A DNA stretch of 64,000 nucleotides from Acidithiobacillus ferrooxidans ATCC 23270 (GTDB taxonomy: Bacteria > Pseudomonadota > Gammaproteobacteria > Acidithiobacillales > Acidithiobacillaceae): positions 2,634,001-2,698,000 of the forward strand of contig NC_011761.1 in the NCBI RefSeq assembly GCF_000021485.1. The letters run 5' to 3'. A program made the translations under genes and the position numbers. Every line of letters begins with the position of its first letter. Within the stretch, counting starts at the first letter, position 1. Below are positions 5,784 to 31,791 of the stretch, piece after piece. The notes under the pieces were generated by a model, which saw only the letters and a program-made list of their open reading frames with translations, was not told the origin of the DNA and did no database searches.

Positions 5784-5808
5784 CCGGTCCGGCATCCGCG
5801 TTCTTCTT

Positions 5809-7182: not shown

Positions 7183-7188
7183 TTCGGT

Positions 7189-10456: not shown

Positions 10457-11929
10457 ATGAGTTTAGTGCCTGTGATTTTGTCCGGCGGTACGGGTTCCCG
10501 CCTGTGGCCGCTCTCCCGCAAATCCTTTCCCAAACCTTTCGTCGCGTTGCCAGACGGCGAAAACCTCATTCAAAAAACCCTGCATCGCATCATCAACCTG
10601 GGAGCCGAAGGCCCCATCCTCACGGTCACCAACCGCGACTACTATTTTCTGACGCGCGACACCTATGCCGCCTGCGCCAAAACCCGCCATTGCAAGATAC
10701 CGGACGCACACTACCTGCTGGAGCCGGAGGGCCGCAACACCACCCCCGCCATGGCCGCAGCGGCCCTCTGGGCGCGCGAGATGGAGGGGGATGACGCGGT
10801 TCTCCTCTTCCTCCCGGCGGACCATCTCATCGCGGACGAAGCGCGCTTCGGCGCCGCCGTACGGAGCGCGGCGGCCCTGGCCGGGCAAGGTTACCTCGTC
10901 ACCTTTGGCGTGACCCCCACCGCGCCGGAAACCGGCTACGGCTACATTCAGGCGGGCGAGTCACTGGGCGCGGGGCGCCAGGTCGTGCGCTTCGTCGAAA
11001 AACCCAATGCCGCAACCGCCCGAGACTATCTCACCAGCGGCGACTACCTGTGGAACTCCGGCATGTTCTGCATGCAGGCGGGCAGCCTGCTGACGGCGCT
11101 GAAGGACCATGCCCCCGCCATCCTCGCCGCCGCCAGCGCCGCGACAGCCTCCGCCACGCGCAACGGTGACACCTGGGAGCTTGGTGAGGAATTTGCTGCA
11201 GCCCCGGACATCTCCATCGACTACGCCGTCATGGAAAAGGCCGCCAACGTGGCGGTGGTGCGCGCCGACTTCGACTGGAACGACCTCGGCGCCTGGACCG
11301 GTTACAGCGCGCTGATGCGGGAAGACGAAAACGGCAACCAGATCCACGCCCACGACAGCCTCTTCATCGATGCGCAGCGCTGCGTCGTGCATAGCCCGGA
11401 CCGGCTGACCGCCGTACTCGGTCTGCGCGATGTGCTCATCATAGACACCCCGGATGCGCTATTGATCGCCGACCGGCGCCGGGATCAGGAAGTCAAAACC
11501 ATCGTCGAACGCCTCAAAGCCCGCAAGCACGATAGCGTGGATATTCACACCACCGTCCACCGCCCCTGGGGCACCTACACCACGCTGGAAGAGGGCGACC
11601 GTTTCAAGATCAAGCGGATTGTCGTCAAGCCCGGTGAAAAGCTCTCGTTGCAGATGCACCATCATCGCAGCGAACACTGGATCGTGGTGAGCGGCACCGC
11701 CAGAATCGTCAACGGCGATACCGAAAAGTTGATTCTAACCAACGAATCCACCTATATCCCGGCTGGTCATTGCCATCGCCTGGAAAACCCCGGCATGATC
11801 GACCTGGTGCTGATCGAAGTACAGAGCGGGGCTTATCTGGGGGAGGACGATATTGTACGGTTCGACGATATTTATGGTCGCGCCCCGAAAAAAGCGCCAG
11901 AATCTCCCGGAATGTCCATCACCGGTTAA
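10457..11929 (+). CDS. manC: Mannose-1-phosphate guanylyltransferase / mannose-6-phosphate isomerase
   Basis: Bifunctional type II enzyme that makes GDP-mannose from mannose-1-P and GTP and can isomerise fructose-6-P to mannose-6-P. 490 residues from the ATG at 10457 (AAGGGG just upstream). The N-terminal nucleotidyltransferase has SGGTGSRLWPLSR and FVEKP; the C-terminal cupin isomerase has KPGEKLSLQMHHHRSEHW with the metal-binding His and Glu residues. It is the first gene of the polysaccharide locus and supplies gmd downstream, as in many capsule and exopolysaccharide loci. The next gene starts 21 bases after its stop. Confidence 0.95.
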   Translation: MSLVPVILSGGTGSRLWPLSRKSFPKPFVALPDGENLIQKTLHRIINLGAEGPILTVTNRDYYFLTRDTYAACAKTRHCKIPDAHYLLEPEGRNTTPAMAAAALWAREMEGDDAVLLFLPADHLIADEARFGAAVRSAAALAGQGYLVTFGVTPTAPETGYGYIQAGESLGAGRQVVRFVEKPNAATARDYLTSGDYLWNSGMFCMQAGSLLTALKDHAPAILAAASAATASATRNGDTWELGEEFAAAPDISIDYAVMEKAANVAVVRADFDWNDLGAWTGYSALMREDENGNQIHAHDSLFIDAQRCVVHSPDRLTAVLGLRDVLIIDTPDALLIADRRRDQEVKTIVERLKARKHDSVDIHTTVHRPWGTYTTLEEGDRFKIKRIVVKPGEKLSLQMHHHRSEHWIVVSGTARIVNGDTEKLILTNESTYIPAGHCHRLENPGMIDLVLIEVQSGAYLGEDDIVRFDDIYGRAPKKAPESPGMSITG

Positions 11930-11949
11930 ACCCGCAAAAGGAACGCTGC

Positions 11950-13065
11950 GTGCTCAAGGCCCTCTGGACCCGGATCAGAAATCTGAACAAACTCTTTATC
12001 TATGTGGTGGTTCTACCCACCGCGGTAGCAATTCTCTATTTCGGGATCATCGCCTCGCCGGTTTATATCTCCGAGTCCCGCTTCATCGTATACAGCCCCA
12101 GCCAACATATGAGCAGTTCCGGTCTCAGCAGCCTGCTCAGCGGTCTGTCGGGCAGCAGCTCCATGACCGGCACCTACTCTGTCCACGACTACATCGAATC
12201 CTGGGACGCCATGATGGCGGTAAACCGCGCCTACAACCTGAAAGAGGTGTATGGCAATAGCGGGATCGACATCTTCGGCCGTTTTGGCGGTCTCTTTTAC
12301 CCCTCCAGCAGCTACGTGAAACTGCTGCGCTATTACCAGTCCATGGTCACCGACAACCTGGACAACACCAGCGGCATCACCAAACTCAAGGTGCGCGCCT
12401 ACAGCGCCGCGGATGCCCAAAAGATCAACGCCTTCCTCCTGCAAAAAAGCGAAGCGCTGATCAACCAGATGAATGATCAAGCCAGGGAAAACGCGGTCAG
12501 CTATGCCCAGCAAGATGTAAACAAGGCCGAGGTGCGGGTAAATCAGGCCACCGTCGCGCTCGCCGCATACCGGAATCAGCATGCGGTATTCAGCCCCGAT
12601 CCCCAGTCGGCGCTACAGCTCCAGCTCATATCCCAGCTCCAGACCCAGGTCATCTCTGAAAAAGCGCAACTCGCCGCCATTCTTCAACACGCGCCACAAA
12701 ACCCGCAGATCCCCGTGCTGCGCAGTGGTATCGCGGCGCTGGTGTCTGAAGTGGACAAGGAAAAAGCCAAGGTAGTCGGCGGAAAAAGCTCCCTGGCCAG
12801 TAAGGATCCGGCCTATGTGCGGCTGTCCCTCGCTCAGGCGTTGGCGACAAAGATCCTGGAGGCGGCGGTCACCTCGCTGGAACAGGCCAAGGTGGAGGCA
12901 CAGAAGCAGCAACTCTACCTGGAACCCATCTCCAGGCCCAATCTGCCCGATGCACCCCAAGAGCCGCACCGCGTACGCGATATCCTGGGCGTATTGGCCC
13001 TGGCGTTGGTGGTGTGGGGGGTGCTGAGCATACTGGTCGCCGGCGTGCGAGAACACCATGACTAA
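11950..13065 (+). CDS. kpsE: Capsule export inner-membrane protein, KpsE/BexC/CtrB family
   Basis: 371 residues from the GTG at 11950, with AAAAGGA at 11935-11941; the frame is open upstream but inside manC. Topology fits a polysaccharide co-polymerase/membrane-fusion protein: one membrane helix (FIYVVVLPTAVAILYFGII), a large periplasmic part starting SPVYISESRFIVYSP, a long coiled coil (about 160-330), the proline-rich SRPNLPDAPQEPHRVRD, and a C-terminal membrane helix. It should bridge the KpsMT-type ABC transporter to the outer-membrane export channel. Confidence 0.92.
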   Translation: MLKALWTRIRNLNKLFIYVVVLPTAVAILYFGIIASPVYISESRFIVYSPSQHMSSSGLSSLLSGLSGSSSMTGTYSVHDYIESWDAMMAVNRAYNLKEVYGNSGIDIFGRFGGLFYPSSSYVKLLRYYQSMVTDNLDNTSGITKLKVRAYSAADAQKINAFLLQKSEALINQMNDQARENAVSYAQQDVNKAEVRVNQATVALAAYRNQHAVFSPDPQSALQLQLISQLQTQVISEKAQLAAILQHAPQNPQIPVLRSGIAALVSEVDKEKAKVVGGKSSLASKDPAYVRLSLAQALATKILEAAVTSLEQAKVEAQKQQLYLEPISRPNLPDAPQEPHRVRDILGVLALALVVWGVLSILVAGVREHHD

Positions 13066-13115: not shown

Positions 13116-14249
13116 ATGCCAGAACAGCTTGATATCCAGCGCATTCTCGCGTTGCCCGATAACGAGTTTCTGCTAGAAGTATTTCGCGCACTTCTGGGTC
13201 GCGATCCCGACCCGGATGGCCTGCATTTTTATACCAACCGCCTGCAGCAGGGGATCAGCAGAACACGGGTACTGCTCGAATTTCGGACTTCTGCCGAAGG
13301 GCAAAAACGGGCGGATGTCCTTTCGGTACCGGAACTGAATGCGTTGGTCCCGCGCTATCGGTTTCTCAAACAACTGCCTTTGGGCAAATGGCGGTGGCTG
13401 TTTTTGCCCACGCTAAACAAAACGACAAAACCCGGCGAACAGGCCGGGCCTCGTTGGCACCAGAAGGAACCCACGTTCTGGGAAGGCATTGCCATCCAAC
13501 GAAGGGTGATCTGGGCGCTTATTCTACGCGAGACGGTTACCCGTTATGGACGAGAGAATCTGGGGATGTTGTGGTTTTTCGCCGAACCACTGCTGTTTAT
13601 CGTTGGTATCACACTTTTATGGAGCTACATCGAACCCAGGTCCGTTCCAGCCGGAACGGTGGCCGCTTTTGCGGTGGTCAGTTATCCGACCGTTTTGCTC
13701 TGGCGTAACACCGCGAATAGGGTGACAAAGGCTATTGAAGTGAATCAAGCACTTTTGCATCACCGCCCCATTCGGGCACAGGATTTTTTCTACTCCAGGA
13801 TATTGCTGGAGTTCGCGAGCGCAACAGGTTCCTTCTTGGTGATATTCATACTTTTTGTAGCGGTGGGCATATCCCATTTCCCTGCCAATCTCTTCGACAT
13901 GGTCATGGGCTGGCTCATGGTGGCCTGGTTCGCCTTCGGCTTCGTCTTGACGATGGGCGGACTGTCGGAAGTCAGCGAGGTGGTGGAAAAAGTGTCCCAC
14001 ATTATCTTGTATCTCATGCTGCCGTTTTCTGGCGGCTTTTTCCCCGCTTATATTGTTCCCGAACCCATGCGGAATTATCTTTTGCTTTTTCCTCTGGCGG
14101 ATTGTGTGGAGTTTTTCCGATATGGGTACTACGGAGACTCATTCCCCTGTTATTACCACCTGGGGTACACCATTATCTGCAACCTGGCATTGACGCTCTT
14201 CGGTTTAGCCATGATGACCTATGCCATTCGTAAAGTAGAAGCGACATGA
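13116..14249 (+). CDS. kpsM: KpsM-type ABC permease with N-terminal DUF4214-like domain
   Basis: 377 residues. The C-terminal two thirds (from about 115) is an ABC-2 permease for polysaccharide export with about six membrane helices, beginning near IQRRVIWALILRETVTRYG, the usual KpsM/BexB N terminus. In front is an extra soluble part of about 100 residues with LLGRDPDPDGLHFY and ISRTRVLLEFRTSAEG, a DUF4214-type module. The same module is found in the protein encoded at 15792. KpsM proteins are normally about 260 residues, so this is a fusion. The stop overlaps the next gene by four bases, coupling permease and ATPase. Confidence 0.92.
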   Translation: MPEQLDIQRILALPDNEFLLEVFRALLGRDPDPDGLHFYTNRLQQGISRTRVLLEFRTSAEGQKRADVLSVPELNALVPRYRFLKQLPLGKWRWLFLPTLNKTTKPGEQAGPRWHQKEPTFWEGIAIQRRVIWALILRETVTRYGRENLGMLWFFAEPLLFIVGITLLWSYIEPRSVPAGTVAAFAVVSYPTVLLWRNTANRVTKAIEVNQALLHHRPIRAQDFFYSRILLEFASATGSFLVIFILFVAVGISHFPANLFDMVMGWLMVAWFAFGFVLTMGGLSEVSEVVEKVSHIILYLMLPFSGGFFPAYIVPEPMRNYLLLFPLADCVEFFRYGYYGDSFPCYYHLGYTIICNLALTLFGLAMMTYAIRKVEAT

Positions 14250-14899
14250 TTGAGCTTTGTGAAGTGACCAAGACCTACCCTATCTATCATGGCCATGCGC
14301 AACGGACCATTTTGGATAGGATAAATTTGCGTGTAGGGAAGGGCCAAAAATGGGGCATCCTCGGGCGGAACGGGGCGGGTAAATCGACGCTTATCCGACT
14401 CATCAGTGGTGCAGAAAGGCCTAATACCGGCAATATCGTCAGAAACATGACCGTATCCTGGCCCTTGGCTTTTGGTGGAGCTTTTCAGGGCAGCCTCACG
14501 GGGCGGGACAATACCCGCCTCATTTGCCGAGCTTACGGGGTGGATTTTGATAAAACCATAACTATGGTGGAAAACTTCGCAGAGCTTGGTAGTTATCTGT
14601 GGGAACCGGTTAAATCTTATTCATCTGGCATGTCGGCACGACTAGCCTTTGCTATCTCCATATCTGTGGAGTTTGATTGTTTTCTCATCGATGAGGCGCT
14701 GGCCGTTGGTGATCACCGGTTCCTCCAGAAATGTAATGTAGAATTATTTGAAAATCGTGGCGATCGCGCCATGATCATCGTCTCCCATCAGACAAATATT
14801 ATCCGGACCCACTGTGATCATGCCGCCGTATTGGAAAATGGCCATCTGACGGTACATGAAAGCGTGGATTCTGCCATTGCTGCGTACGAGGCGCTCTGA
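14246..14899 (+). CDS. kpsT: KpsT-type ABC transporter ATPase
   Basis: 217 residues, the usual KpsT/BexA size. Walker A is GRNGAGKST, the ABC signature is the KpsT-type SSGMSARLAF, and Walker B is CFLIDEAL followed by the switch His in IIVSHQ. It powers export of the finished polymer across the inner membrane together with the preceding permease, with which it overlaps by four bases. It lacks the C-terminal sugar-recognition domain of Wzt proteins, so chain-end recognition is not done here. Confidence 0.95.
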   Translation: MIELCEVTKTYPIYHGHAQRTILDRINLRVGKGQKWGILGRNGAGKSTLIRLISGAERPNTGNIVRNMTVSWPLAFGGAFQGSLTGRDNTRLICRAYGVDFDKTITMVENFAELGSYLWEPVKSYSSGMSARLAFAISISVEFDCFLIDEALAVGDHRFLQKCNVELFENRGDRAMIIVSHQTNIIRTHCDHAAVLENGHLTVHESVDSAIAAYEAL

Positions 14900-16454: not shown

Positions 16455-19400
16455 ATGAGAATCGTCATCGACTTGCAAGGCGCACAAACACCTGGGAGCC
16501 GAAATCGCGGTATCGGGCGTTATTCCCTATCTCTGGCTCTGGCAATCGCTAGACAAGGTGGGGAGCATGAAATTCTCATCATGCTAAATGGTGCGTTTCC
16601 TGACACGATAGATCCAATACGCCAGGCTTTCAATGGCCTGATTCCAACCGATAATTTCAGAATTTTATACGGATTATATCCCTCGCGCGCTATTGATGCA
16701 GACAACCGATGGAGGCGTCAAGCATCTGAAAAACTTTATGAATCGTTCATGTTGCAAATTGATCCGGATATTCTGTTGGTTAGCAGCCTATTCGAAGGTT
16801 TTCATGAAGATGCCATTACCAGCGTTAATAGCCAAGGCAAATATGCGGTTGCTGTTATTCTTTACGACCTAATTCTCTTAATTCATCCCAAACCTTATCT
16901 AGAGAACCCTAGTGTTTCGGCTTGGTATCATGCTCGCCTTGACCATCTTCGACGGGCTGATATCTTGCTTGCTATATCCGAGTCTTCTCGTCAGGAGGCT
17001 ATAAAATACCTAGATGTTGAAGACGGACAAGCGGTCAATATTTCCTGCTCAATAGATGGCTATTACCGTCCGTTGTCGTTTTCTCTGGAGGAACGGCGGC
17101 ACATAATGGAGCGATACTATCTGACCCGGCCATTCGTCATGTATACCGGTGGAATAGACTATCGGAAGAACATCGAAGCACTAATTAGTGCATATGCAAA
17201 ACTGTCTAACGAGATTCGCCGTGGCCATCAATTGGCTATTGTCTGTTCGATTCTGGATCATGATCGGAACCGTCTGGAAAAGCTCGCGCAAAAATGTGGC
17301 TTGGGTGCTGGGGAATTGGTGTTCACTGGTTTTATCCCAAGCGATGATCTCCTGGCGCTCTATAATCTGTGTCGCCTGTTCGTTTTTCCATCGTGGCACG
17401 AAGGTTTTGGGTTGCCGGTGTTGGAAGCTATGGCCTGTGGTGCGCCAACGTTGGCCTCCAATTGCAGCAGTTTGCCTGAGGTGGTCGGGCTGGACGAGGC
17501 TCTATTCGATCCCAAGGATGAGCACGCTATCGTAGATGCTATGGAGCGCGCTCTGACGAATGATGCGTTTCTCCAAAGACTTAAGGCGCACGGGTTGCAG
17601 CAGGCTAAAAAGTTTTCATGGGACGCTAGCGCCCAACGTGCGTTACAGGCAATGGAAACGCGGGTCAGCATGGCTAAATCCAGTCGGGCGGCTACACCGC
17701 CACTGGCGAAAATACCTCGCAAGCGACTGCGACTAGCCTATGTCTCGCCGTTGCCTCCTGCACAAACTGGTATTGCTGACTACAGTGCTGAATTGTTGCC
17801 AGAATTGTCCCGCTACTATGTCATTGATGTCATCGTTGCCCAGCAAGAGCCGGTGACTGATCCTTGGGTTCTGGCTAATGCCGCTCAGCGCATGGCTGCG
17901 TGGTTTGACCAGCATGCTGGCGAATATGACCGCATCCTCTATCAATTCGGTAACTCGCAATTTCACCAACACATGTTCGGCCTGCTGGAAAAACATCCTG
18001 GTGTGGTAGTGCTGCACGATTTTTTCCTCAGTGGTGCTTTGGTGCATATGGATTTACACGGAATCATGCCGGGGATTTGGGCGCAGGCCTTGCAACGTTC
18101 CCATGGCTGGCAGGCGGTTTGCGAACGCTACTCAGAGACAGACACCGCCGCAGTGATTTTCCGATACCCCTGCAACCTAGACGTTTTGCAACGTGCCCAA
18201 GGCGTTATCTGCCATTCGGATTTTTCCCGTCGGCTAGCCATGCAGTGGTATGGGCCGGGCTGGGCGGATGACTGGGCCTTGGTTCCCCTTTTGCGCGTGC
18301 CAGTTGTGGATAACCGACGCCAGGAGGCGCGCGATGAGTTAGGCCTAGATGACCGCGACGTTCTAGTCTGTAGTTTCGGCCTCATGGGAAAAAGCAAACT
18401 TAACCATCGCTTGCTCGAAGCGTGGCAGGCGTCCAGTCTGGCAAAAGACAAACGCTGCAAGCTAGTGTTCATCGGTTTTCTACCGATGGATGACTACGGC
18501 GAGCAAATCCGGCAGGTACTAAAGGCGCCGGGGTTGCGTGGGCGGGTGCATGTGACTGGTTGGGCTGATGCGGCTACCTATCGTCGCTATCTAGCTGCGG
18601 CCGATCTTGCTGTGCAATTACGTACCCTATCGAGGGGGGAGACTTCCGGCACGGCGTTAGACTGCATGAATCACAGTGTGGCTACCATAGTAAACGCCAA
18701 TGGTTCGATGACAGACTTGCCAGCGGACGTGGTGCATGTGCTTCCTGATGAGTTTTCCACCCAGCATCTCGTTGACGCACTTGATTTTCTGCGCAAGAAC
18801 AAACCTGCGCGTCAAGCTTTGGGTCAGCGGGCAGCGCAGCACGTTCGAGCATACCACAACCCCCGACGCTGCGCTGACCAATACGCACAGGCCATTGAGG
18901 AGTTTTACCTTCGCGCGGAATCGGGCGCATCGGGCATCATCAAAGCCGTCCGACAGCTCGGTATGCCCGAAAATGTTCAAGATATTACACAGGTTGCTGA
19001 ACGCTCTGTGCAGCTTTTTCCCCCGCCCCGACCTGCCCAAAAACAGTTACTCGTGGATGTGTCAAGCCTTGTGCAAGGCGGCGTCGATAGTGAGTGGGAC
19101 TATGGCGCCACCAGGTTGGTATTACAGGAGCTGCTGAATCATCCCCCACCCGATTTGCGGGTAGAACCGGTGTATATCACAGCCGAACATGGCTACCGTT
19201 ACGCGCGGCGCGCCACCATGCGTTTTCTAGGATATCCCGATGGTGACCTGCAGGACGATGTGATGGAGGTCTGGCCTGGGGATGTGTTTTTTGGCCTAGA
19301 TTTTCAGCTTGAAATGGTTCCTATGCAGGCAAAATTCTTTGAAGAGATCCGCTATCGTGGCGCTCAGGTGTTTTTCCTGTGCTACGATCTACTACCATGC

Positions 19401-22202
19401 ATGGCGCCACAATATTTCCTCCCGGATAGGTCTGCGGCCCACTTTCGCTGGTTACAGACTATCGCAATAACCGATGGAGTGATATGTACCTCACGAGCGG
19501 TAGCCGATCAATTTTCTCATTGGTTAGATTTATTTGGCCCTGAACGAAGCACACCATTGCACCTCGGCTGGGCCCATATTGGCTTTGAAGTCATCCAAAA
19601 GATGAAGGAGTTAGACACAGCCTATAGGTACCGGCACGTTCTCGATAAAGTTCGCGCCCGACCAAGTTTTCTCAGCGTTACCACATTGGAGCCAAGCAAA
19701 CAACTGGGGCAAGTTTTGACCGCTTTTGATCTTCTATGGCGGCAGGGTATGGATGTCAATCTGGTTCTGGTAGGTAAGTATCGCTCGGAGGGAGAGAATA
19801 TGGTTGCACGCCTACAAACCCACCCAGAGCGGGAAAGCCGCCTGTTCTGGCTGCAGGACATCAGCGGTGATAGGCTGGATCATATGTACGCCGCAAGCGC
19901 CTGCCTGATTGCCGCTTCGGTCGATGAAAGCTTTGGGTTGACCCTAATTGAGGCTGCACAGCACAAGTTACCCATCCTGGCACGGGACACTCCCGTATTT
20001 CGCGAGATGGCAGGTGAGTATGCCGACTATTTTAGTGGAGATGCGCCACAGCACTTGGCGGAAGCCATTAGGCACTGGCTACAGGCCCATAAGAGCGGTA
20101 GTGGCACACAGGCCCATCTTATTGTTCCTAGACTGACCCAGCAGAAAAGCACTCAGAACCTCATGGAAGTTATGCTAGGTGGAAATTGGTATAGGCAATG
20201 GTTCCGGCAAACAGACCCACGTCTGGTTGCCCGCTACTGGGGCTCGGACTGGCGCCTAGGCAGCGCGGTCGGGGAAATATGCGGCACCTCCCGCCAGAGC
20301 AAGGGAGTGGCGGGGTACTTGCTTCATGGGCCATATATTTCCCTGAAACCGGGCAGGTATGTTGCCACTATCCACGGAACCCACGGTTTTGGGGGTCCGG
20401 CAGGTGCCAGGGCCGATGTGGTAATAAAAGGTGGTACCATGAAGATCGCGGAAGAAGTCATACTTGCTTGTGATTATGTGGAAGCCAAACAGCAGCCTTT
20501 AGTTACCCTGCCCTTCATTCTGGCGGATGGCTGCAGCGACTTGGAAGTACGGGTACATGTCGAACAGGAGAGTGATATACAGGTGACCATGTTGGAACTC
20601 CATAAACAGGACGGAGCTGTCCAAATCGCTACTTCGCAAAACAATGCCACAACAGAAATGCCTTTCGCCAGCTCCATTGGTACCGATTTCACTTCCCCAA
20701 CCGCCGTTGTATACCGTTACTGGGCAACACATCCGTGTTTGTCGAGCCAAGTAGGGCAGAAAGTTGGTCGCACGCTTTGGACTTTGGGCAAGGCAGGTGT
20801 TCTGGTGCATGGCCCCTATATTAGTTTGCCTGCCGGGACCTATCGCGCCGCAGTATTCGGTCAGGTCAACCGCCCAGGAAGCTTGGATGGGGCGTGGATG
20901 GACGCCACTGCGCAGAAAGGCGAACTGCAGCTTGTGAAAACTACGTTGGGTACAAACGCACAGTGCCCCGCTCTGCTGGGAGAAATCACCTTCAGCTTGA
21001 ACCGTTACACCAAAGATGTGGAGGTTCGGGTGTGGGTGGACACGGGCTCCGACTTGCATGTGACTGGGATCCAGATCGAACAAATCCCCGATGAAGCATG
21101 TGCTACTGAGCCTGCGACCAAGGGCGGGCCAGATGGGGCGGATATAAGGCCTGTTAAACAGGTAACCGATGTGCGGGCACCTGTGATGGAAATCCATAAA
21201 CTGGATGTGGTTTCCCCACTAACCACTTTGCAATGCTCTCTAAAACCAAGGGTTCAATTTACTGAAGACGTGCACTATTACAAGGCGACGCATCCACATC
21301 TGCATTCTGAAGTAGGGCGGAAGGTTGGCCGCACGTTGCTAACGCAAGGCAAGGCAGGTTTCCTTTTGCGTGGGCCATACATTGGCTTGCCTGCCAGACG
21401 CTATCGCGCAGAGCTATTTGGTAACATTACAGGGCCTGGTGGTTTGAACGGATCATGGATGGATGCTGCGGCGCAGCAGGGCAGGTTGCAACTTGCGAGG
21501 GAGCCGTTAGCGGAGGATGCGTGGCGAACCGGTTTGCTTGGGGAGATCACCTTCACGTTGAATAGCGACATTGAAGATGTAGAGGTTCGAGTATGGGTGG
21601 ATGCGGCCTCGGAATTGCTAGTGAGCGGAATCCAAATCACCCCATCGCCTGATCCGGCGGATACAACGGGGCCAATGACGGAGGCGACCGTCGTAATGTC
21701 GATTCAAGGGGATGTGACTGCTTTACATACCGAAGAGACGACGGAGGAATATGGGGAAGAGCTAACACAGGAGGCGCCGGGCGAATCGATCACTATGAAC
21801 ACCGCAGAAATAGCGGATGCAGTCTGGGAAAAGACTAATGTGGTTGATGCTGCCGATGCCGACGCCCTGTACCAGCAATCTGGTGCAGAATACGCCAGAA
21901 TTAGGGGTGTGATGAAAGGTAAAGATATCGGAGAGCAGGTAGGACACCCATTTTCACCGATGATAACCGCCCTTGGCTCGGCGCAGAAGCTATCTATGGA
22001 GACGAATGGGCACGCTGAGGATGGGTCTAGCGAAACTAAAGCAGTAGTGGCATTTGCAGAAAATGCTCGGGACAAGGAATCGGAGGAACCGCGTGGCGGC
22101 GCGCATGTACCACAAGCCTCACATCGGACAGATCGGAAAGACAGCATCGTGAAAACGCGATATGCCACGAAAAAAAATGTAAAACACAGAAAATTTAAAT
22201 AA
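16455..22202 (+). CDS. Giant glycosyltransferase: three GT4 units plus three repeated beta modules
   Basis: 1915 residues. Unit 1 (about 1-405) is a complete GT4 with EGFGLPVLEAMACG near 315. Unit 2 (about 420-820) starts LRLAYVSPLPPAQTGIADYS and has RGETSGTALDCMNH. Unit 3 (about 860-1230) starts LLVDVSSLVQGG and has DESFGLTLIEAAQHKLP near 1156. Then come three copies of a module of about 125 residues (about 1255-1390, 1415-1545, 1600-1730) with core GPYI-L-AG-YRA and DVEVRVWV. Last is an acidic, disordered stretch of about 180 residues with a basic end. The same beta module occurs twice in the following sulfotransferase. It probably builds a multi-sugar repeat processively. A ribosome site AGGAAAA lies upstream. 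The DNA is less GC-rich than the flanks. Confidence 0.9.
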   Translation: MRIVIDLQGAQTPGSRNRGIGRYSLSLALAIARQGGEHEILIMLNGAFPDTIDPIRQAFNGLIPTDNFRILYGLYPSRAIDADNRWRRQASEKLYESFMLQIDPDILLVSSLFEGFHEDAITSVNSQGKYAVAVILYDLILLIHPKPYLENPSVSAWYHARLDHLRRADILLAISESSRQEAIKYLDVEDGQAVNISCSIDGYYRPLSFSLEERRHIMERYYLTRPFVMYTGGIDYRKNIEALISAYAKLSNEIRRGHQLAIVCSILDHDRNRLEKLAQKCGLGAGELVFTGFIPSDDLLALYNLCRLFVFPSWHEGFGLPVLEAMACGAPTLASNCSSLPEVVGLDEALFDPKDEHAIVDAMERALTNDAFLQRLKAHGLQQAKKFSWDASAQRALQAMETRVSMAKSSRAATPPLAKIPRKRLRLAYVSPLPPAQTGIADYSAELLPELSRYYVIDVIVAQQEPVTDPWVLANAAQRMAAWFDQHAGEYDRILYQFGNSQFHQHMFGLLEKHPGVVVLHDFFLSGALVHMDLHGIMPGIWAQALQRSHGWQAVCERYSETDTAAVIFRYPCNLDVLQRAQGVICHSDFSRRLAMQWYGPGWADDWALVPLLRVPVVDNRRQEARDELGLDDRDVLVCSFGLMGKSKLNHRLLEAWQASSLAKDKRCKLVFIGFLPMDDYGEQIRQVLKAPGLRGRVHVTGWADAATYRRYLAAADLAVQLRTLSRGETSGTALDCMNHSVATIVNANGSMTDLPADVVHVLPDEFSTQHLVDALDFLRKNKPARQALGQRAAQHVRAYHNPRRCADQYAQAIEEFYLRAESGASGIIKAVRQLGMPENVQDITQVAERSVQLFPPPRPAQKQLLVDVSSLVQGGVDSEWDYGATRLVLQELLNHPPPDLRVEPVYITAEHGYRYARRATMRFLGYPDGDLQDDVMEVWPGDVFFGLDFQLEMVPMQAKFFEEIRYRGAQVFFLCYDLLPCMAPQYFLPDRSAAHFRWLQTIAITDGVICTSRAVADQFSHWLDLFGPERSTPLHLGWAHIGFEVIQKMKELDTAYRYRHVLDKVRARPSFLSVTTLEPSKQLGQVLTAFDLLWRQGMDVNLVLVGKYRSEGENMVARLQTHPERESRLFWLQDISGDRLDHMYAASACLIAASVDESFGLTLIEAAQHKLPILARDTPVFREMAGEYADYFSGDAPQHLAEAIRHWLQAHKSGSGTQAHLIVPRLTQQKSTQNLMEVMLGGNWYRQWFRQTDPRLVARYWGSDWRLGSAVGEICGTSRQSKGVAGYLLHGPYISLKPGRYVATIHGTHGFGGPAGARADVVIKGGTMKIAEEVILACDYVEAKQQPLVTLPFILADGCSDLEVRVHVEQESDIQVTMLELHKQDGAVQIATSQNNATTEMPFASSIGTDFTSPTAVVYRYWATHPCLSSQVGQKVGRTLWTLGKAGVLVHGPYISLPAGTYRAAVFGQVNRPGSLDGAWMDATAQKGELQLVKTTLGTNAQCPALLGEITFSLNRYTKDVEVRVWVDTGSDLHVTGIQIEQIPDEACATEPATKGGPDGADIRPVKQVTDVRAPVMEIHKLDVVSPLTTLQCSLKPRVQFTEDVHYYKATHPHLHSEVGRKVGRTLLTQGKAGFLLRGPYIGLPARRYRAELFGNITGPGGLNGSWMDAAAQQGRLQLAREPLAEDAWRTGLLGEITFTLNSDIEDVEVRVWVDAASELLVSGIQITPSPDPADTTGPMTEATVVMSIQGDVTALHTEETTEEYGEELTQEAPGESITMNTAEIADAVWEKTNVVDAADADALYQQSGAEYARIRGVMKGKDIGEQVGHPFSPMITALGSAQKLSMETNGHAEDGSSETKAVVAFAENARDKESEEPRGGAHVPQASHRTDRKDSIVKTRYATKKNVKHRKFK

Positions 22203-22211
22203 GGTATTGAT

Positions 22212-23861
22212 ATGGTTAATACTTTCTATTCCGGTCGACTCATATTTCACCATTTGGAAAAAACTGCTGGCCAAGCAGTTAATGACTGGATGGGCAGGAC
22301 TTTAGGGGTTGGCACAGTAACGCCCAATTTGATTGGTGCACATAGGGATTTGATTCAGCGTTATGGTGGACATTATCCTGTCATTAGTGCCCATATTTGG
22401 TTTGACGGTACCGGGTTGGATCCGCGTTATCAGTATGTTACAGTTTTGCGCGACCCCGTTGATCGCTTCATTTCCTGGCTTTATTTTATCGATAAAGATG
22501 TGGAGCTAACGGAGGATACTAGGGAACTAAAGGTGGGTGCACAATTGTTCCTGCGCTCCGAAGGAGAAGAGACAAATCAGACTTTTATGCGAAGTGCGTC
22601 AAATCCCTATGTCAACAACTTCAGTAGTGTAGTTATGCGATGCAATGCGTCATGGCAACAGAAAATGGTGGCTGCACTGTCAGTGCTCACTGACTATGAT
22701 TTAGTGGGTTTCCAGGCAGACTTGCCGCAATTTATTGAGCAACTTGCCAAATTGTTGCATGTTATAAACTATGTATCCCTACGCCCCGTTAATGTCACTA
22801 GTTCTCGGCCACAGCGGGACGGTATTTCTGAGAAGATGCTCCATGCTATACGCAAGCTAACTGAGTGGGATTTGGAGCTTTATTCTGAGATTCAACGAAT
22901 GGCCAACCGGCAAGCGCCAACAATTGGTGTCTCTTGCAATATTCAGCCGTTCAATCGGGAGTTTGGTGATTGGGGGTTCAAGGCAAGAAAGTCCTCTAAT
23001 GTGTATTGGCTTGGATCCTACCTGACGCACTACTTAGCTAAGGATTTGAGCACGCGGAATGGTTCTGTGGCGGGGCGGGCTCTTGTTAGTAACGGAGCTA
23101 AAGGTTATTTATGCCACGGCCCGTACCTGGACCTGGACCCAGGACATTATTGTGCGGTAGCAAACGGAGTTTGGATTACGCGAGGCGTTACTTGTAATGC
23201 CGACGTTTGCAGTGGTAAAGGCGCTGTCTTGCATGCCGAAGAAACGCTGGTTGACTTGGGGGCTAAAGGCACCGAATGGTCTCTACCCGTAGACTTTGCC
23301 TTGGATGAAGAAACAACGAGTGTAGAATTTCGCCTAATGGTTCCCGATGAACACCAAGTTCAATTGAATACGGTCACCATTGTGAATGAGAAAATGGTTA
23401 TGACGATCTTGGGCTTGGAACCTGACTCCCATGCGGCGAATCGCGGTGTAGAGAAACAGAATTCAGGGAGTACCCTTATTTTTCCGGTGCAAATGTCTTC
23501 GAAAATCGGGTTGCGTGTTGGTACAACGTTGCAGACAACTGGTCAGGAGGGATTTTTGTGCTATGGGCCTTACATGACCCTAAGTAGAGGTATATACAGA
23601 GTTAACCTGATGGGTAGTATCGGACCCCAGGGTTTGGCTGGGGCTTATGCCGATATTGTTTGTGACGCAGGGAAAAAAGGCATACACAACGAACCGTTGG
23701 CAATCACTCCATTCAATGAATACGTCGATAGCACTGTTGGGAAGCCGTGGATGTTTTTCTTGGAACAGGATGTGAGTGACTTGGAGATTCGGCTCTGGGT
23801 GAGCAATCAGACGGAAATCAACCTATGTGGCATCGTGCTCCAACAAATTGAAGAAACATAG
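22212..23861 (+). CDS. PAPS-dependent sulfotransferase with two C-terminal beta modules
   Basis: 549 residues. The N-terminal part (1 to about 235) is a sulfotransferase of the Sulfotransfer_2 type: the 5'-phosphosulfate loop is FHHLEKTAG (12-20) and the 3'-phosphate motif is VLRDPVDRFISWL (78-90). Two copies of the module seen in the preceding giant transferase follow (about 255-395 and 420-548), each with a YGPYM-L or HGPYL-L core and an EFRL or LEIRLWV strand. It should transfer sulfate from PAPS to a sugar hydroxyl of the polymer. cysD-cysNC downstream make PAPS and cysQ removes PAP. The AT-rich DNA is unlike the cys genes. Confidence 0.88.
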   Translation: MVNTFYSGRLIFHHLEKTAGQAVNDWMGRTLGVGTVTPNLIGAHRDLIQRYGGHYPVISAHIWFDGTGLDPRYQYVTVLRDPVDRFISWLYFIDKDVELTEDTRELKVGAQLFLRSEGEETNQTFMRSASNPYVNNFSSVVMRCNASWQQKMVAALSVLTDYDLVGFQADLPQFIEQLAKLLHVINYVSLRPVNVTSSRPQRDGISEKMLHAIRKLTEWDLELYSEIQRMANRQAPTIGVSCNIQPFNREFGDWGFKARKSSNVYWLGSYLTHYLAKDLSTRNGSVAGRALVSNGAKGYLCHGPYLDLDPGHYCAVANGVWITRGVTCNADVCSGKGAVLHAEETLVDLGAKGTEWSLPVDFALDEETTSVEFRLMVPDEHQVQLNTVTIVNEKMVMTILGLEPDSHAANRGVEKQNSGSTLIFPVQMSSKIGLRVGTTLQTTGQEGFLCYGPYMTLSRGIYRVNLMGSIGPQGLAGAYADIVCDAGKKGIHNEPLAITPFNEYVDSTVGKPWMFFLEQDVSDLEIRLWVSNQTEINLCGIVLQQIEET

Positions 23862-23899
23862 TGGCGGAGCCTAGCGGATTACTGAAAAAAGGGGAAAAA

Positions 23900-24676
23900 A
23901 TGGATTCAATGCTATGTACAAAACGTACGCTTTTGTCCGATGAATTTCAACATTGGGCCAGATTGTTTATGAAAACTGGTAAGCTTCATAGAAAATTCTG
24001 GGAGTGGTGTTTTATTGCGCAGGCTCTAAAGGAGCATGACATGCTTGCTCCAGGTAGGATCGGCCTTGGGTTTGGTGTCGGCGAAGAACCACTATCAAGT
24101 TGCTTTGCGTCGTTTGGCGCTAGTATCCTGGCCACAGATTTAGATTTACAGAACTCGTCTGTAGCGGGATGGACGAAAACTTCGCAACATGCGGATAATA
24201 AAGGCAAACTAAACAAGTTGGGCATATGCCCGGGATGGGAGTTTGAAAATCTGGTAGAGTTTGAGTTTGCTAATATGAACAGTATACCCAAAAGATACAC
24301 AGGAAAATTCGATTTTGTGTGGTCATCTTGTTCCTTGGAGCACCTTGGATCAATAGAAAAAGGGGTGACATTTATTCTTAACTCTATTAATTGTTTGAAA
24401 CCTGGTGGAGTAGCGGTACATACCACAGAATTCAATGTGTCGCCGAATTCAGACACTATCGAAACGGGACCAACTGTGCTGTTTCGCAGAAAAGAAATTG
24501 AAGATATTATCGAAAGAGTTAGAAGTTTTGGTTGCCGCGCGCATATTAATTGGGACCACGGGGACTTACCAGAGGATTACTATATTGATATTCCTCCATA
24601 CTCTCATAATCCACACCTTAAACTTAGGATCAGTAAGTATGTTGTAACATCTATTGGATTGGTAATCAGTAAATGA
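23900..24676 (+). CDS. SAM-dependent methyltransferase
   Basis: 258 residues from the ATG at 23900, just after AAAAGGGGAAAA; an upstream GTG at 23861 overlaps the sulfotransferase stop and is less likely. It has a class I fold: motif I GRIGLGFGVGEEPLS, an acidic strand end ILATDLDL, and FDFVWSSCSLEHLGS followed by LKPGGVAVHTTEF. Similar proteins in surface-sugar loci methylate a sugar hydroxyl or cap a chain. The substrate cannot be read. Like the two genes before it, it is AT-rich. Confidence 0.8.
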   Translation: MDSMLCTKRTLLSDEFQHWARLFMKTGKLHRKFWEWCFIAQALKEHDMLAPGRIGLGFGVGEEPLSSCFASFGASILATDLDLQNSSVAGWTKTSQHADNKGKLNKLGICPGWEFENLVEFEFANMNSIPKRYTGKFDFVWSSCSLEHLGSIEKGVTFILNSINCLKPGGVAVHTTEFNVSPNSDTIETGPTVLFRRKEIEDIIERVRSFGCRAHINWDHGDLPEDYYIDIPPYSHNPHLKLRISKYVVTSIGLVISK

Positions 24677-24830
24677 CTAAAACTAGCCTTCTGTATGACT
24701 CAGTTTTATACGCTGAGGAATATGGCTTAAAAAACTGGCATGGGGCAACGACGAAACGGCATTATTATGTTTCTTCCAGGACGATATTTTGTAAGCACGA
24801 TAAAATTGCCGAGTGGAAGGTGACTGCTGT

Positions 24831-25712
24831 ATGAATACGCTCGAAGCCGAATCCCTCGGAATCCTGCGCGAAGCCGTAGCCGAGGCGCGCAAGCCGGTGA
24901 TGCTGTATTCCATCGGCAAGGATTCCTCGGTAATGCTGCACCTGGCGCGCAAGGCCTTTGCGCCGGGTCCGCTGCCCTTTCCGTTGCTGCATGTGGACAC
25001 CGGCTGGAAGTTCCGTGAAATGATCGCCCACCGCGACCGCATGGCGCGAGAGTTGGGGGCGGAACTGATCGTACACAGCAACGAGGAAGCGATGACGGCG
25101 GGTATCAACCCCTTCGATCACGGGGCCAGCTATACCGACATCATGAAGACCCAAGCGTTGAAGCAGGTCTTGGATGCGCACGGCTTCGACGTGATCTTCG
25201 GCGGCGCCCGGCGTGACGAGGAAAAGTCCCGCGCCAAGGAACGTATCTTTTCCGTGCGCGAATCCGGTCACCGCTGGGAGCCGAAAAACCAGCGTCCGGA
25301 GCTCTGGTCTCTATATAATACCCGGCTGAACCCCGGGCAGACGCTGCGGGTCTTCCCCCTGTCCAACTGGACCGAGGCCGACATCTGGCAGTATATCGCG
25401 CAGGAAGGAATACCCCTTGTGCCGTTGTACTTGGCCAAGGAGCGCCCAGTCGTGCAGCGCGATGGCCAATGGATCATGGTGGATGACGAACGTCTGCCGC
25501 TGGCGCCGGGCGAGGTGCCCGAGATGCGCAGGGTGCGCTTCCGCACCCTGGGCTGCTATCCCCTCACCGCCGCTGTCGAAAGCGATGCCGATACCCTGGA
25601 GGCGGTGATCGCCGAAACCCTGGCCGCACGCAGCTCCGAGCGCGCCGGGCGGCTGATCGACCATGACAGCTCCGGCTCCATGGAACGCAAGAAGCAGGAG
25701 GGCTATTTCTGA
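24831..25712 (+). CDS. cysD: Sulfate adenylyltransferase subunit 2
   Basis: ATP-PPi-exchange subunit of ATP sulfurylase, which makes adenosine 5'-phosphosulfate with CysN. 293 residues from the ATG at 24831 (GGAAGG upstream). The PP-loop is [11 protein letters not shown] near residues 26-36, with [16 protein letters not shown] and [10 protein letters not shown] typical of CysD. The gene is GC-rich, in sharp contrast to the AT-rich genes just before. The stop and the next start share a base (TGATG). No reductase genes (cysH, cysI, cysJ) follow, so the product is likely for sulfation rather than cysteine synthesis. Confidence 0.96.
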
Positions 25713-27526
25713 TGAACGGTCGCTTGCGTTTTCTTACCTGCGGCAGTGTCGACGATGGCAAGAGTACCCTCATCGGTCGGCTGCTCTTCGACACCAAGCA
25801 AATCTTCGACGACCAATTCCAAGCCCTCGAAAAAGACTCCGCCCGCTTCGGCACCCAGGGTGCTGCGCCCGATTTGGCCTTGCTGGTGGACGGCTTGCAA
25901 GCGGAGCGTGAGCAGGGCATTACCATCGACGTGGCCTACCGTTTCTTCGCCACGCCCGAGCGCGCCTTCATCGTCGCCGACACGCCCGGGCATGAGCAAT
26001 ACACCCGCAACATGGCCACCGGCGCCTCCACCGCCGATGCGGCCGTGGTCCTGGTGGATGCGCGCAAGGGGCTGCTGACCCAGACCCGCAGGCACACCCG
26101 TATCGTGGCGCTGATGGGGGTGCGGCAAGTGGTGTTGGCCGTCAATAAGATGGACCTGATGGACTGGAGCGAAAGTGCCTTCCGCGCCATTGCCGACGAA
26201 TACGCCGCCTTTGCTCAAGAACTGGGGCTCACCGCCGTGCAGTCCATTCCCCTTTCGGCGTTGACGGGCGACAACCTCACTCAGTCCAGCACCCACACCC
26301 CCTGGTATGGCGGCCCCACCTTGCTGCAGTGGCTGGAGAACGTGCCCGCTGGGCTGGAGGAGGCCACGCCGCCGCTGCGCCTGCCGGTGCAACTGGTGCT
26401 ACGGCCCCATGCCGAGTTTCGCGGCTATTGCGGGCGCATCGCCCAAGGCACGCTGCGCCCTGGAGACGCAGTGCGTGTGCTCCCTTCAGGCGTTAGCTCT
26501 ACGGTCCAGCAGATATTCGTTGGCGAGCAGGCGCAGGCCCAAGCCCAAACCGGTGAATCGGTATGCATCACCCTGGCCGACGAGCGCGACATCAGCCGCG
26601 GTGATGTGCTCTGTGCGGTCGATGCTCCACTGGAGATGGCCGAGCAGTTCCATGCCCATCTGCTGTGGCTGCACGAGCAAGCCCTCATCCCCGGTCGCCC
26701 CTATTGGCTCCAACTGCACCACCGTACCGTATCGGCCACGGTGAGCTCCATCCGCCACCGCATCGACCCCAACAGTGGGGCGGAACTAGCCGCGCGCGAG
26801 CTACAGATGAACGATATCGCCGAGGTACACCTGAACCTCGATCGCCCGCTGCCCTTCGCCCCCTATGCCGAAAACCGTCCTCTTGGCGCCTTCATCCTCA
26901 TCGACCGCCTGAGCAACGCCACCGTGGGCGCCGGGATGCTGGACTTCGCCCTGCGCCGCGATCACAACCTGCACTGGCAGCAACTCAGCGTGAACAAAGC
27001 CGCCCGCGCCGCGCTCAAGCACCAGCCACCCCGGTGCGTGTGGTTCACCGGCCTGTCCGGGTCGGGCAAATCCACCCTGGCCAATCTGCTGGAAAAGCGC
27101 CTGCACGCCCAAGGGCACCATACCTACGTGCTGGACGGCGACAATGTGCGCCACGGACTGAACCGCGACCTGGGCTTTGCCGAGGCCGACCGGGCCGAGA
27201 ACATCCGCCGTGTGGCGGAGGTGGCCCGGCTGATGGTGGATGCCGGTCTGATCGTGCTGGTGTCCTTCATCTCGCCTTACCGCGCCGAGCGGGAATTCGC
27301 CCGCAGCCTCTTCACCCCAGGGGAGTTCCTTGAGGTGTTCGTGGACACGCCCCTGGAAGAATGTGAGCGACGCGATCCTAAGGGAATCTACGCCCGCGCC
27401 CGGGCCGGGCAGATTCCCAACTTTACCGGCATCAGCAGCCCTTACGAGCTACCGCTGACACCAGAGCTACGCCTCAGCACCCCCGGCAGCAGTCCGGAAG
27501 CGTTGCTGGAGCCGGTGTTAATGTGA
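25712..27526 (+). CDS. cysNC: Bifunctional sulfate adenylyltransferase subunit 1 / APS kinase
   Basis: 604 residues. The N-terminal GTPase half (CysN) has [23 protein letters not shown] and NKMD, followed by two beta-barrel domains. The C-terminal CysC kinase starts near residue 440 with GLSGSGKST (about 446-455), then [15 protein letters not shown] and the lid [10 protein letters not shown]. The pair CysD-CysNC converts sulfate and two ATP (plus GTP hydrolysis) to PAPS. The same fused form, NodQ, sits with the NodH sulfotransferase in rhizobia. An IS110-family element begins just after the stop. Confidence 0.96.
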
Positions 27527-27595
27527 AAGAAATCCGTGGAATGGGCACGGCAATCCCTGGCCATCGGGTGGCCATATTGGGATCGAAGTGACGCT

Positions 27596-28822: not shown

Positions 28823-29140
28823 AACGACGTCTCTCCAATTACTATCAAAGGGAGAGATGGCGAATGCCAGCGCCGAAATCACCAGCCTGTGGCAAGCCTC
28901 AGGCGGCCCTTTTAATGTGCGCTCTCAAGGGAGGCAATCCGGGGTACGAGTCGGCCTGGCGGGTCACGTTAGAGTCGGGATGGAATCACCAAAAACTTGC
29001 TCGACCTCAATCCGCCATCTCCTCACCCCCCATTCTCTTTCATCCTCTGGGGTGGCGCGAGTCGCAATGTCCGTTAGAGTTATTGCAAAGCAATGGGCAG
29101 TGCGGCGAATGACGGCTTTCAGAATCCAGGAGGTGATTGC
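28823..29140. other. Non-coding stretch upstream of the transposase and of cysQ
   Basis: 318 bases with no convincing gene. The part next to 28823 is the 5' non-coding end of the IS110 element on the minus strand, where IS110-group elements encode their guide (bridge) RNA. The part towards 29140 holds the cysQ ribosome site AGGAGGTGAT at 29128-29137. The boundary between element and host DNA was not located. Confidence 0.45.
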
Positions 29141-29998
29141 GTGATCGCTGATACTATTGACATGGAACGAATTATTGCCATCGCCAAAGAAGCCGGCGAT
29201 GCCATCATGGAAATTTATCAACGGGATTTTACGGTGGATTACAAGGAGGACTCCTCCCCCCTCACGGATGCCGATCGTGCCGCACATGGGATCATTCTCC
29301 ATGGCCTTCATGCCCTTTATCCGGAGATTCCGTTTTTGTCGGAAGAGGGTGATGCCATTCCTTATGAGATACGGAAACACTGGGGCTTTTTCTGGCTGGT
29401 GGATCCCTTGGATGGTACAAAAGAGTTCATCCGGAAAAATGGCGAATATACCGTAAACATCGCGCTGATCGAAAACAACAGGCCGGTGCTCGGTGTGGTT
29501 TACGCCCCGGCGCTGGATCTCATGTACTACGCAAAAGAGGGAGCAGGGGCATGGCGCCAAGATGCAGTACAGGGGACCCAAAAGCTTCCGTTGCATGTCA
29601 ATGATAGTCGGGAACAGAAGCTGACGGTGGTGGCGAGCAAATCCCATCGATCGCCCGAGACGGAAGTCTATATCGACGAGCTTCGAAAATCCACGCGGGA
29701 ACTCGAGGTCGTTTCGATTGGCAGTTCGCTCAAGATCTGCCTCGTCGCCGAGGGGGATGCGGATTGTTATCCCCGCTTGGGGCCAACCATGGAATGGGAT
29801 ACGGCGGCGGCCCAGATTATTGCGACCGAAAGCGGCTGTAGAGTAGAGGCTGCCGCTGGCGGACATAAACTAATATATAACAAAAAAGATTTATTAAATC
29901 CCTATTTTGTTGTTGAAACAGCGGTCGCCATGTTTTGCAACGGCCGGACGGTGGCAAACACGAGAGGGTATGAACATGAACCGACTTCTGATCAATGA
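29141..29998 (+). CDS. cysQ: 3'(2'),5'-bisphosphate nucleotidase
   Basis: Removes the 3' phosphate of PAP, the by-product of sulfotransferases, giving AMP and relieving product inhibition. 285 residues from the GTG at 29141, set by a near-perfect AGGAGGTGAT. The inositol-monophosphatase fold is shown by LSEEGD, the metal-binding DPLDGTKEF, and WDTAAAQII near the C terminus. It shares a region with cysDNC and a sulfotransferase, which explains the need for it. Its stop lies 23 bases inside the next gene. Confidence 0.95.
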   Translation: MIADTIDMERIIAIAKEAGDAIMEIYQRDFTVDYKEDSSPLTDADRAAHGIILHGLHALYPEIPFLSEEGDAIPYEIRKHWGFFWLVDPLDGTKEFIRKNGEYTVNIALIENNRPVLGVVYAPALDLMYYAKEGAGAWRQDAVQGTQKLPLHVNDSREQKLTVVASKSHRSPETEVYIDELRKSTRELEVVSIGSSLKICLVAEGDADCYPRLGPTMEWDTAAAQIIATESGCRVEAAAGGHKLIYNKKDLLNPYFVVETAVAMFCNGRTVANTRGYEHEPTSDQ

Positions 29999-31733
29999 AC
30001 CATTCCGCCGGGCGCACTCCGGGATCTTATCCCGGCTAATCGTCGTGGTGTGGACCCTCGTAGCCCTTGGCGGCTGCGCATCCGTTATGCCCTACGGCAG
30101 ACCAGGTACATCCTCACCAACGACGACATCCGTTTTGCCGCAACATGTCCTTTTGCCTCAGATCAAAAGGACCTATCCGACCTTTCAGCCGAAGATGCCG
30201 CCTCCTGCCCGGCACCTCTATGTGGCGAACATCAGCGCACTCCCGCCAGATCAAAAACGGCTGCTAGTGACGCTGCAAGGCATTGTTAACCGCACCCAGC
30301 CGCGGATTTATCTCGTATGGGATCCGAGTGATCTGTTCTGGCTGCGCCAGATGCAAAAACAAGGTCAAACCGGCACGCCGATTCCGGTTAACCAACCTTT
30401 GTCGCTGGTACGGATTTTCCGTAATGACATACAGGGCGCGGTGATTCCGGATCCGAGGGTTTATATTTCTCCGGATATCGCCGTGGATATCGCGGCGCTG
30501 GACAACCTGGTGGTGGCCACGCCCGCCCTGGCGCGGCAACTGCATTTGCCCATCAAGGCGGATTTGCGCGGGCGCTTTAAGAATGATGTGCAGGCCCTGC
30601 GGTACCTGCGGACACAACTGGCACCACGGATGAATCCCTTTCTGTTTTTATGCCTGGCCCCCCAACTTCTGGCTGGCGGCGCGGAAGATCAGATCATTGC
30701 CGCGCGCGGTATGACGTTCTGGGTGACTGGTCCCAAAGAGCAGCAAGAACCAGGAGCGGATATGGCTGGAGAAAAACAACAAATAGAAAAACTCTTTGCC
30801 GCCACGCCGCTGGATGGGGTAGTGCGCGGTTGGTGGTGGAGTGGCGACGGAAAGGGCCTGGGAGAGGGCATTGGTGTCAGGCTGGGCTCTGAGTTTGGGA
30901 AAGTCACCGTAGTCAGCGACCATGTACATAACCTTTCCGTATTGAGCGGGGTAAGGCTGGTAGCGCTACGGCAGAAATTTGCCCCGCCCCCGAAACTGGA
31001 TCGATCCAAGGTGTATCTCTCGTTCACTATTTCTGACGGCGACAATCTGAATACTTGGCAGAATTTTTTCTGGCATTGGTTTAAGAGTCCGTATTATGGC
31101 AAGTTCGCGGCCGGATGGGCCATGGGACCGACACTGATCGACGTGGCGCCCACGCTGGCGCAATGGTACTACCAGCACGCCGGATCGAATAATGAATTTA
31201 TAGCCGGTGTTTCCGGCGTCGGTTATATGTACCCGTCCGTCTGGGCGATTCGCTTGGATAATCGCCAAGCTGCATTTCAGGATTTTTATAACTGGACATG
31301 GCGCTACATGCAGCGGATGGATATGAAAACTCTCCGCGTGCATCGGGCCTTCGCACGAAATAACCAAATGGCTAGACAGGATATCGCCAAAGTCGCGGCG
31401 GCGTTGCCGCAAGCGCAATTTATAATGCCGGATTATGGCTACGCTGGTGAGAAGGATTACCACCGGATCACATACCAGCTACCAAGTGGACAGGTAATTT
31501 TCCGGGCGGGCACTAGTTGGCAGCCAGATACCCAGAAACTCCCTAATCTAGTTCAACAAATCCGCTCCCGTGTGGGGGCAACACGGCCGGCATTTATCAA
31601 TGTCTTCATCTTGAATTGGGCCATGGGCATGCATCGCCTGTACCTGCTTCTCAAAGCGCTCGGCCCGGATTATGTGGATGTCACCCCCTCCCAGTTGAAT
31701 ACGCTTTATCGTGAGGCACACCATGATGGCTAA
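29976..31733 (+). CDS. GxGYxYP-family putative glycosidase, lipoprotein
   Basis: 585 residues from the ATG at 29976 (GAGAGGG seven bases upstream). A signal helix ends in the lipobox LGGC. The core resembles the GxGYxYP putative glycoside hydrolases: VNRTQPRIYL in the N-terminal domain, FTISDGDNLNTWQ in the barrel, and the naming motif as GVGYMYP. The mature N terminus CASVMPYGRPGTSS closely matches that of the Wza-like lipoprotein encoded next (CASYLPYSGPRTSS). A role in trimming or releasing the polymer at the outer membrane is plausible, but no activity is established from sequence. It overlaps the end of cysQ. Confidence 0.8.
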   Translation: MNRLLINEPFRRAHSGILSRLIVVVWTLVALGGCASVMPYGRPGTSSPTTTSVLPQHVLLPQIKRTYPTFQPKMPPPARHLYVANISALPPDQKRLLVTLQGIVNRTQPRIYLVWDPSDLFWLRQMQKQGQTGTPIPVNQPLSLVRIFRNDIQGAVIPDPRVYISPDIAVDIAALDNLVVATPALARQLHLPIKADLRGRFKNDVQALRYLRTQLAPRMNPFLFLCLAPQLLAGGAEDQIIAARGMTFWVTGPKEQQEPGADMAGEKQQIEKLFAATPLDGVVRGWWWSGDGKGLGEGIGVRLGSEFGKVTVVSDHVHNLSVLSGVRLVALRQKFAPPPKLDRSKVYLSFTISDGDNLNTWQNFFWHWFKSPYYGKFAAGWAMGPTLIDVAPTLAQWYYQHAGSNNEFIAGVSGVGYMYPSVWAIRLDNRQAAFQDFYNWTWRYMQRMDMKTLRVHRAFARNNQMARQDIAKVAAALPQAQFIMPDYGYAGEKDYHRITYQLPSGQVIFRAGTSWQPDTQKLPNLVQQIRSRVGATRPAFINVFILNWAMGMHRLYLLLKALGPDYVDVTPSQLNTLYREAHHDG

Positions 31734-31791
31734 ACCGGGAATGCAGCGTGGAATGACGCAGCAATCAGAGATAATGGATGGGAGACGGAAA

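Follow-up and report, generated by a model that had tools for sequence, protein, structure and literature searches.

Carbohydrate-binding modules (CBMs) are known mostly from glycan-degrading enzymes and from one transporter subunit. The O-antigen cap is recognised by the carbohydrate-binding domain (CBD) of Wzt, which folds as a jelly roll (PMC9445017). A further CBM has been predicted in the Klebsiella O7 terminator ORF6, a methyltransferase-kinase-glycosyltransferase, and its authors state that CBMs are not known in other terminators (PMC11231755). A sulfated capsule cluster has been described from Cobetia marina KMM 1449, comprising kps genes for ABC export together with cysN/C, cysD, cysQ, sulfotransferase and glycosyltransferase genes (PMC11766843). 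Here, we describe a repeated module from the window, i.e. the whole analysed stretch of 64,000 nucleotides from Acidithiobacillus ferrooxidans ATCC 23270 (contig NC_011761.1, positions 2,634,001 to 2,698,000; coordinates below are those of the window, or of the respective locus where one is named). The modules constitute a real, widespread and undescribed CBM-like family for which Pfam and NCBIfam hold no model. New are the family itself and its placement on glycan-building enzymes, while the fold and the probable role are familiar.

The modules are found in two adjacent genes of the + strand. The first (16455..22202, +) encodes a giant glycosyltransferase (GT) of 1915 aa with three GT4-type domains, three modules and a low-complexity C-terminal tail of about 184 aa (21648..22199, +) that, on inspection of the sequence, lies outside the repeat. 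The catalytic part matches Pfam Glycos_transf_1 in three stretches (E 3.2e-63), and such a layout would be expected of a polymerase adding several sugars per repeat. The second gene (ORF at 22212..23861, +) encodes a sulfotransferase (ST) of 549 aa. Its catalytic region (22212..22997, +) shows the Sulfotransfer_2 signature and, by eye, the motifs KTAGQAV and LRDPVDRFISW, of which KTAGQAV and RDPVDRFISW are taken by us to resemble PAPS-binding motifs. The family assignment is marginal, as the catalytic part scanned alone narrowly passes the Sulfotransfer_2 (PF03567) cut-off of 22 with 22.5 bits and the full-length protein stays below it with 20.0 bits. A weak match of the catalytic part to heparan sulfate 2-O-sulfotransferase was also seen (E 0.027), a two-row profile of this part gave no useful match, and the AlphaFold2 model of the whole ST, calculated from a two-row alignment only, has a pLDDT of 32. 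Since no TM-like segments were detected in GT or ST, both enzymes are probably cytoplasmic.

The repeat unit comprises about 125 aa and occurs five times. In GT copy 1 is located at 20232..20609 (+; aa 1260-1385), copy 2 at 20712..21083 (+; aa 1420-1543) and copy 3, which is 62% identical to copy 2, at 21276..21647 (+; aa 1608-1731); ST contains copy 4 (ST copy 1) at 23001..23393 (+; aa 264-394) and copy 5 (ST copy 2) at 23481..23858 (+; aa 424-549). All copies align with each other (pairwise blastp E 1e-6 to 1e-45). A profile built from the GT copies only finds both ST copies (E 1e-12 and 1e-23) and a profile built from the ST copies only recovers all three GT copies (E 4e-19 to 1e-15). Profile search of the 481 ORFs of the window revealed no other ORF with the module at E<1, and the best match among the reversed window ORFs, used as control, had E 0.17. 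Because of these matches across the two genes, the clean remaining ORFs and the reversed control, the five-copy repeat is not a product of chance. The first-pass annotation, made from the letters of the sequence, had proposed five copies of about 125 residues in two neighbouring enzymes and was right in this respect. A profile search of the complete genome, which consists of a single contig of 2,982,397 bases, found no sixth copy.

Two further details of that annotation have to be corrected in part. A common core indeed exists, but the strings VGRTL and DVEVRVWV given for it are not universal since copy 1 and ST copy 1 are more divergent. Likewise, a terminal position is correct for ST, where copy 5 reaches aa 549, but the GT copies precede the low-complexity tail. 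Across the family the core reads G-x3-G ... GxL-xGPY-x2-L-x2-G-x-Y ... F ... (D)xExR, and among 54 de-duplicated modules the top-conserved model positions are G14, G33, P34, Y35, G41, Y43, F93, E103 and R105. Structural reasons may account for the strongest conservation, that of GPY, G-x-Y and E-x-R. Such conservation, as well as the variable linkers between modules, would fit ligand-free structural spacers or stabilisers that were kept by drift after duplication. We consider this the least probable of the explanations discussed here: the fold core is conserved despite an identity of only about 25-30%, and fusions of the module to diverse polysaccharide enzymes recur in distantly related bacteria, which would hardly be expected of a part without function.

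No model of Pfam or NCBIfam covers the five segments, module profiles gave only chance matches among PDB sequences, and profile searches of phage and viral collections revealed no relative. A description of the module was not found in open papers either, where motifs are not searchable as text. The initial impression that no named family could be recognised thus holds for Pfam and NCBIfam, and profile search against these and PDB sequences assigns the segments to no known catalytic or structural family.

The AlphaFold2 model of GT copy 2, calculated with ten homologues in the alignment (pLDDT 91.5, pTM 0.85), comprises ten strands and no helix in a jelly roll, and the predicted fold class is that of a galactose-binding-like jelly roll. 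This all-β model supports the β-sandwich anticipated in the first-pass annotation. The top PDB match in Foldseek is the CBM6 of LamC (5fui; E 5e-5, TM 0.67). With VIA-align, Z-scores of 11-12 over 116-126 residues were obtained for CBM35, porphyran- and alginate-binding CBMs, CBM16 and CBM61 (for CBM35 2w47 Z 11.8, 120 residues, 2.8 Å), and CBM4 is also among the structural matches. Since the ligand-binding domains of Eph receptors and domains of Cry toxins come close to these values in VIA-align, the fold is not diagnostic of sugar binding. The structural matches to CBM6, CBM35, CBM16, CBM61 and CBM4 could mean that the module belongs, as a divergent representative, to a numbered CAZy CBM family (CBM6, CBM35 or a newer one) missed by Pfam, which is a question of naming and compatible with the tether mechanism discussed below. 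We regard such membership as quite improbable because the CBM models of Pfam (as distinct from those of CAZy or dbCAN) match none of 20 module members at E up to 1, including those for CBM6 and CBM35, and the sequence identity to the structural matches is only 5-15%.

The comparison with described systems is nevertheless instructive. The module displays the general trait of CBMs, i.e. it is non-catalytic and joined to carbohydrate-active enzymes. With CBM6 and CBM35 it has in common the full-length fold (Z 11-12, 116-121 residues), the size of about 125-135 aa and the often C-terminal and tandem arrangement, but there is no sequence match (Pfam, PDB) and its partners act in the synthesis or decoration of glycans and not in their breakdown. 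The CBD of Wzt is likewise described as a jelly roll of ABC transporter-dependent polysaccharide export, and it contacts the cytoplasmic lipid-linked glycan (PMC9445017). In contrast with Wzt, where the CBD resides on the transporter ATPase, the module of the window is found on GT and ST, and no sequence match between the two was seen; Wzt structures are not among the fold matches listed, which in itself is no sign of a difference. In Klebsiella O7 ORF6 a predicted CBM is likewise part of an enzyme with several domains that assembles a glycan for ABC-dependent export, but, compared with our module by description, its CBM differs in being described as immunoglobulin-like (PMC11231755).

After removal of near-identical copies 54 module homologues are known. 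Their spread within Pseudomonadota is patchy; one further case is found in a planctomycete MAG and one Sphingobium plasmid carries the module. Of 57 genomes chosen as relatives, at least 10 contain it, counting that of the window itself (two of the ten are marginal with E 0.006-0.009); it is further present in at least 6 of 369 genomes of the class and in at least 8 of 398 of the phylum. Among genomes around two distant positives the respective numbers are at least 12 of 100 and at least 7 of 99.

The usual position of the module is C-terminal, with one to three copies per protein. Outside the genus its partner is a GT4 domain in seven loci (numbered L037, L093, L094, L096, L097, L101 and L102), a sulfotransferase in L103 (above the cut-off and independent), a methyltransferase in L037 and L063, a pyruvyl transferase in L099 and DUF6492 in L067; methyltransferases are also among the partners within the genus. 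In the plasmid-borne DUF6492 protein of L067 the module is N-terminal, as it is in a protein of about 400 aa from within the genus (L038, 14543-15742, -) that has no Pfam match and, by eye, continues with a GT2-like part. Phosphoglycerol transferase I (OpgB) is a tentative partner in L062. There, the C-terminal stretch of a protein matching NF009027, phosphoglycerol transferase I (5132-7399), is weakly related to the module, and the E. coli-type OpgB profile ends before this stretch. OpgB of genus g169 also shows a weak match to the module profile (E 1e-6 to 1e-7) that covers profile positions 39-121 only and is equally tentative. About half of the module carriers have no recognised domain and a few have the module beside membrane segments, which speaks against a role in sugar binding; where partner domains are recognised, all belong to polysaccharide enzymes with the sole exception of TPR repeats beside two GT4s. 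A β-sandwich occurring mainly in surface-sugar enzymes, as had been envisaged, is in line with these recognised partners (GT4, sulfotransferase, methyltransferase, pyruvyl transferase and DUF6492), and the original guess of a carbohydrate-binding function gains support from both the fold (CBM6 and CBM35 matches) and the partner enzymes.

At least two different module proteins per locus are found in the window, L037, L038, L092, L096 and L097, in favour of the sugar-binding reading. This frequent occurrence on several enzymes of one locus, as would also be expected with a shared scaffold partner, and the copy number of one to three are compatible with the main rival explanation, namely a protein–protein docking or oligomerisation domain that joins the enzymes of a locus (or the ABC exporter) in a complex without any contact to sugar; Eph receptors bind proteins with the same fold. 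However, no common non-glycan partner was found, and the partner enzymes include soluble GT4s as well as polytopic membrane proteins (three carriers, L036, L060 and L061). Moreover, in some loci (e.g. L061, L091 and L093, whose regions were read) only one module protein was detected. Docking without sugar contact is therefore considered unlikely, though it deserves more attention than the other rivals.

Phylogenetic reconstruction groups GT copies 2 and 3 with the second modules of the GTs of congeners (97/95) and pairs each ST copy with its counterpart in locus L035 (100/100 and 99/87), while the deeper forks of the module tree have no resolution. On this basis GT copies 2 and 3 are a tandem duplicate and the ST module pair is older than the split from L035. 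As GT and ST modules do not group in the tree, neither set arose recently from the other within the locus of the window. L035 (1-6514) is labelled as a Methylovulum MAG. It shares 94-95% identity with the window in cysD and cysNC but only 55% in ST, a gap as expected if ST follows a variable polysaccharide. With such cysD/cysNC identity we doubt the label: the sequence is probably misbinned (it may be an Acidithiobacillaceae contig) or recently transferred. L035 was therefore left out as independent evidence of a wide spread.

Upstream of GT the window contains genes of polysaccharide export. The product of 11770..13065 (+), which has no Pfam match and whose true start lies probably inside the ORF, is presumably a KpsE-like export-system protein; its homologues adjoin module genes in other loci. 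It is followed by the permease of an ABC-2 polysaccharide exporter with N-terminal DUF4214 (13116..14249, +; Pfam) and by a KpsT-like exporter ATPase (14246..14899, +) of 217 aa that has no Wzt-type carbohydrate-binding tail. A gene for a ManC-type GDP-mannose pyrophosphorylase/isomerase also lies upstream of GT. DUF4214 occurs twice, in the permease (1e-9) and in a small protein directly before GT (15792-16433; 9e-7) whose homologues adjoin GTs in L038, L040 and L045. Seven further loci contain an exporter ATPase of 215-245 aa, a length that leaves no room for a Wzt-type tail, so that eight short-ATPase loci are known including the window. When 25 module regions were compared with 20 random regions of the same genome set, homologues of the separate GT4 gene of the window were found in 11 of 25 against 0 of 20 (Fisher p 5e-4), where these matches could be located on the module protein itself, and KpsE in 5 of 25 against 0 of 20 (p 0.056).

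Downstream of ST a SAM methyltransferase without module is encoded (23861..24676, +; Methyltransf_11 23.2 bits, cut-off 21.2), followed by a sulfate adenylyltransferase subunit (24813..25712, +; Pfam PAPS_reduct 1.7e-53), which we take to be CysD-like from its context, and by a CysN/CysC fusion for PAPS synthesis (25712..27526, +; APS_kinase 1.7e-67, GTP_EFTU 3.5e-42). The product of 29093..29998 (+; Inositol_P 2.9e-58) is a PAP phosphatase, CysQ-like as judged from its context, and an outer-membrane polysaccharide export (OPX) protein is located at 31711..32985 (+; Poly_export 8.4e-19, SLBB). Thus, the region 24813-29998 holds a complete PAPS supply and PAP removal beside the export locus. 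Between cysN/C and the CysQ-type gene a transposase, IS110-like by eye, is inserted (27596-28882, -). The export locus also contains a putative GxGYxYP glycoside hydrolase (29907-31733), with 77-80% identical homologues near the module genes of L038 and L040. In its gene content the locus closely resembles the sulfated capsule cluster of C. marina KMM 1449, for which, compared by description, no such module was reported (PMC11766843). Since genes for PAPS synthesis, PAP removal and export occur together in a set so similar to that cluster, the product of the locus is likely a sulfated capsule-like polysaccharide; our literature search found no report of a sulfated polysaccharide from this acidophile.

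As the module rides on many polysaccharide-making enzymes and has a CBM-like fold, it probably holds these enzymes onto a sugar chain. From homology, predicted fold, domain partners and locus content we infer sugar binding, the nascent glycan as ligand and tethering to the same chain, and we favour, with some confidence, a jelly-roll CBM-like family that would tether the enzymes assembling and decorating the glycan in the cytoplasm to the nascent chain. That GT and ST are kept by the module on one and the same chain during its growth, as first proposed, would fit these data. In such a mechanism the GT4 domains would polymerise the chain, and the GT modules would bind finished repeat units and keep the polymerase processive. 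Through its own modules, ST would have its catalytic domain placed on that same lipid-linked chain prior to export, with multiple copies adding avidity, and KpsMT-type ABC transporters would export the polysaccharide here and in several other module loci. With an exporter ATPase that has no Wzt-type carbohydrate-binding tail, it may be the enzymes that recognise the substrate. A broader proposal is more speculative and in our estimation rather doubtful, namely that otherwise unrelated capsule enzymes (polymerase, sulfotransferase, methyltransferase, pyruvyl transferase) have the module in common as a chain tether, which replaces the substrate check of Wzt-type exporters, so that the presence of a module predicts enzymes acting at the polymer level.

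A widespread and so far unmodelled CBM-like family on capsule-building enzymes would give annotators a marker of polymer-level enzymes. If the tether mechanism is true, it hints at how decorating enzymes locate the growing chain in ABC-dependent pathways, and the modules would represent new binding probes for bacterial polysaccharides, possibly including sulfated ones.
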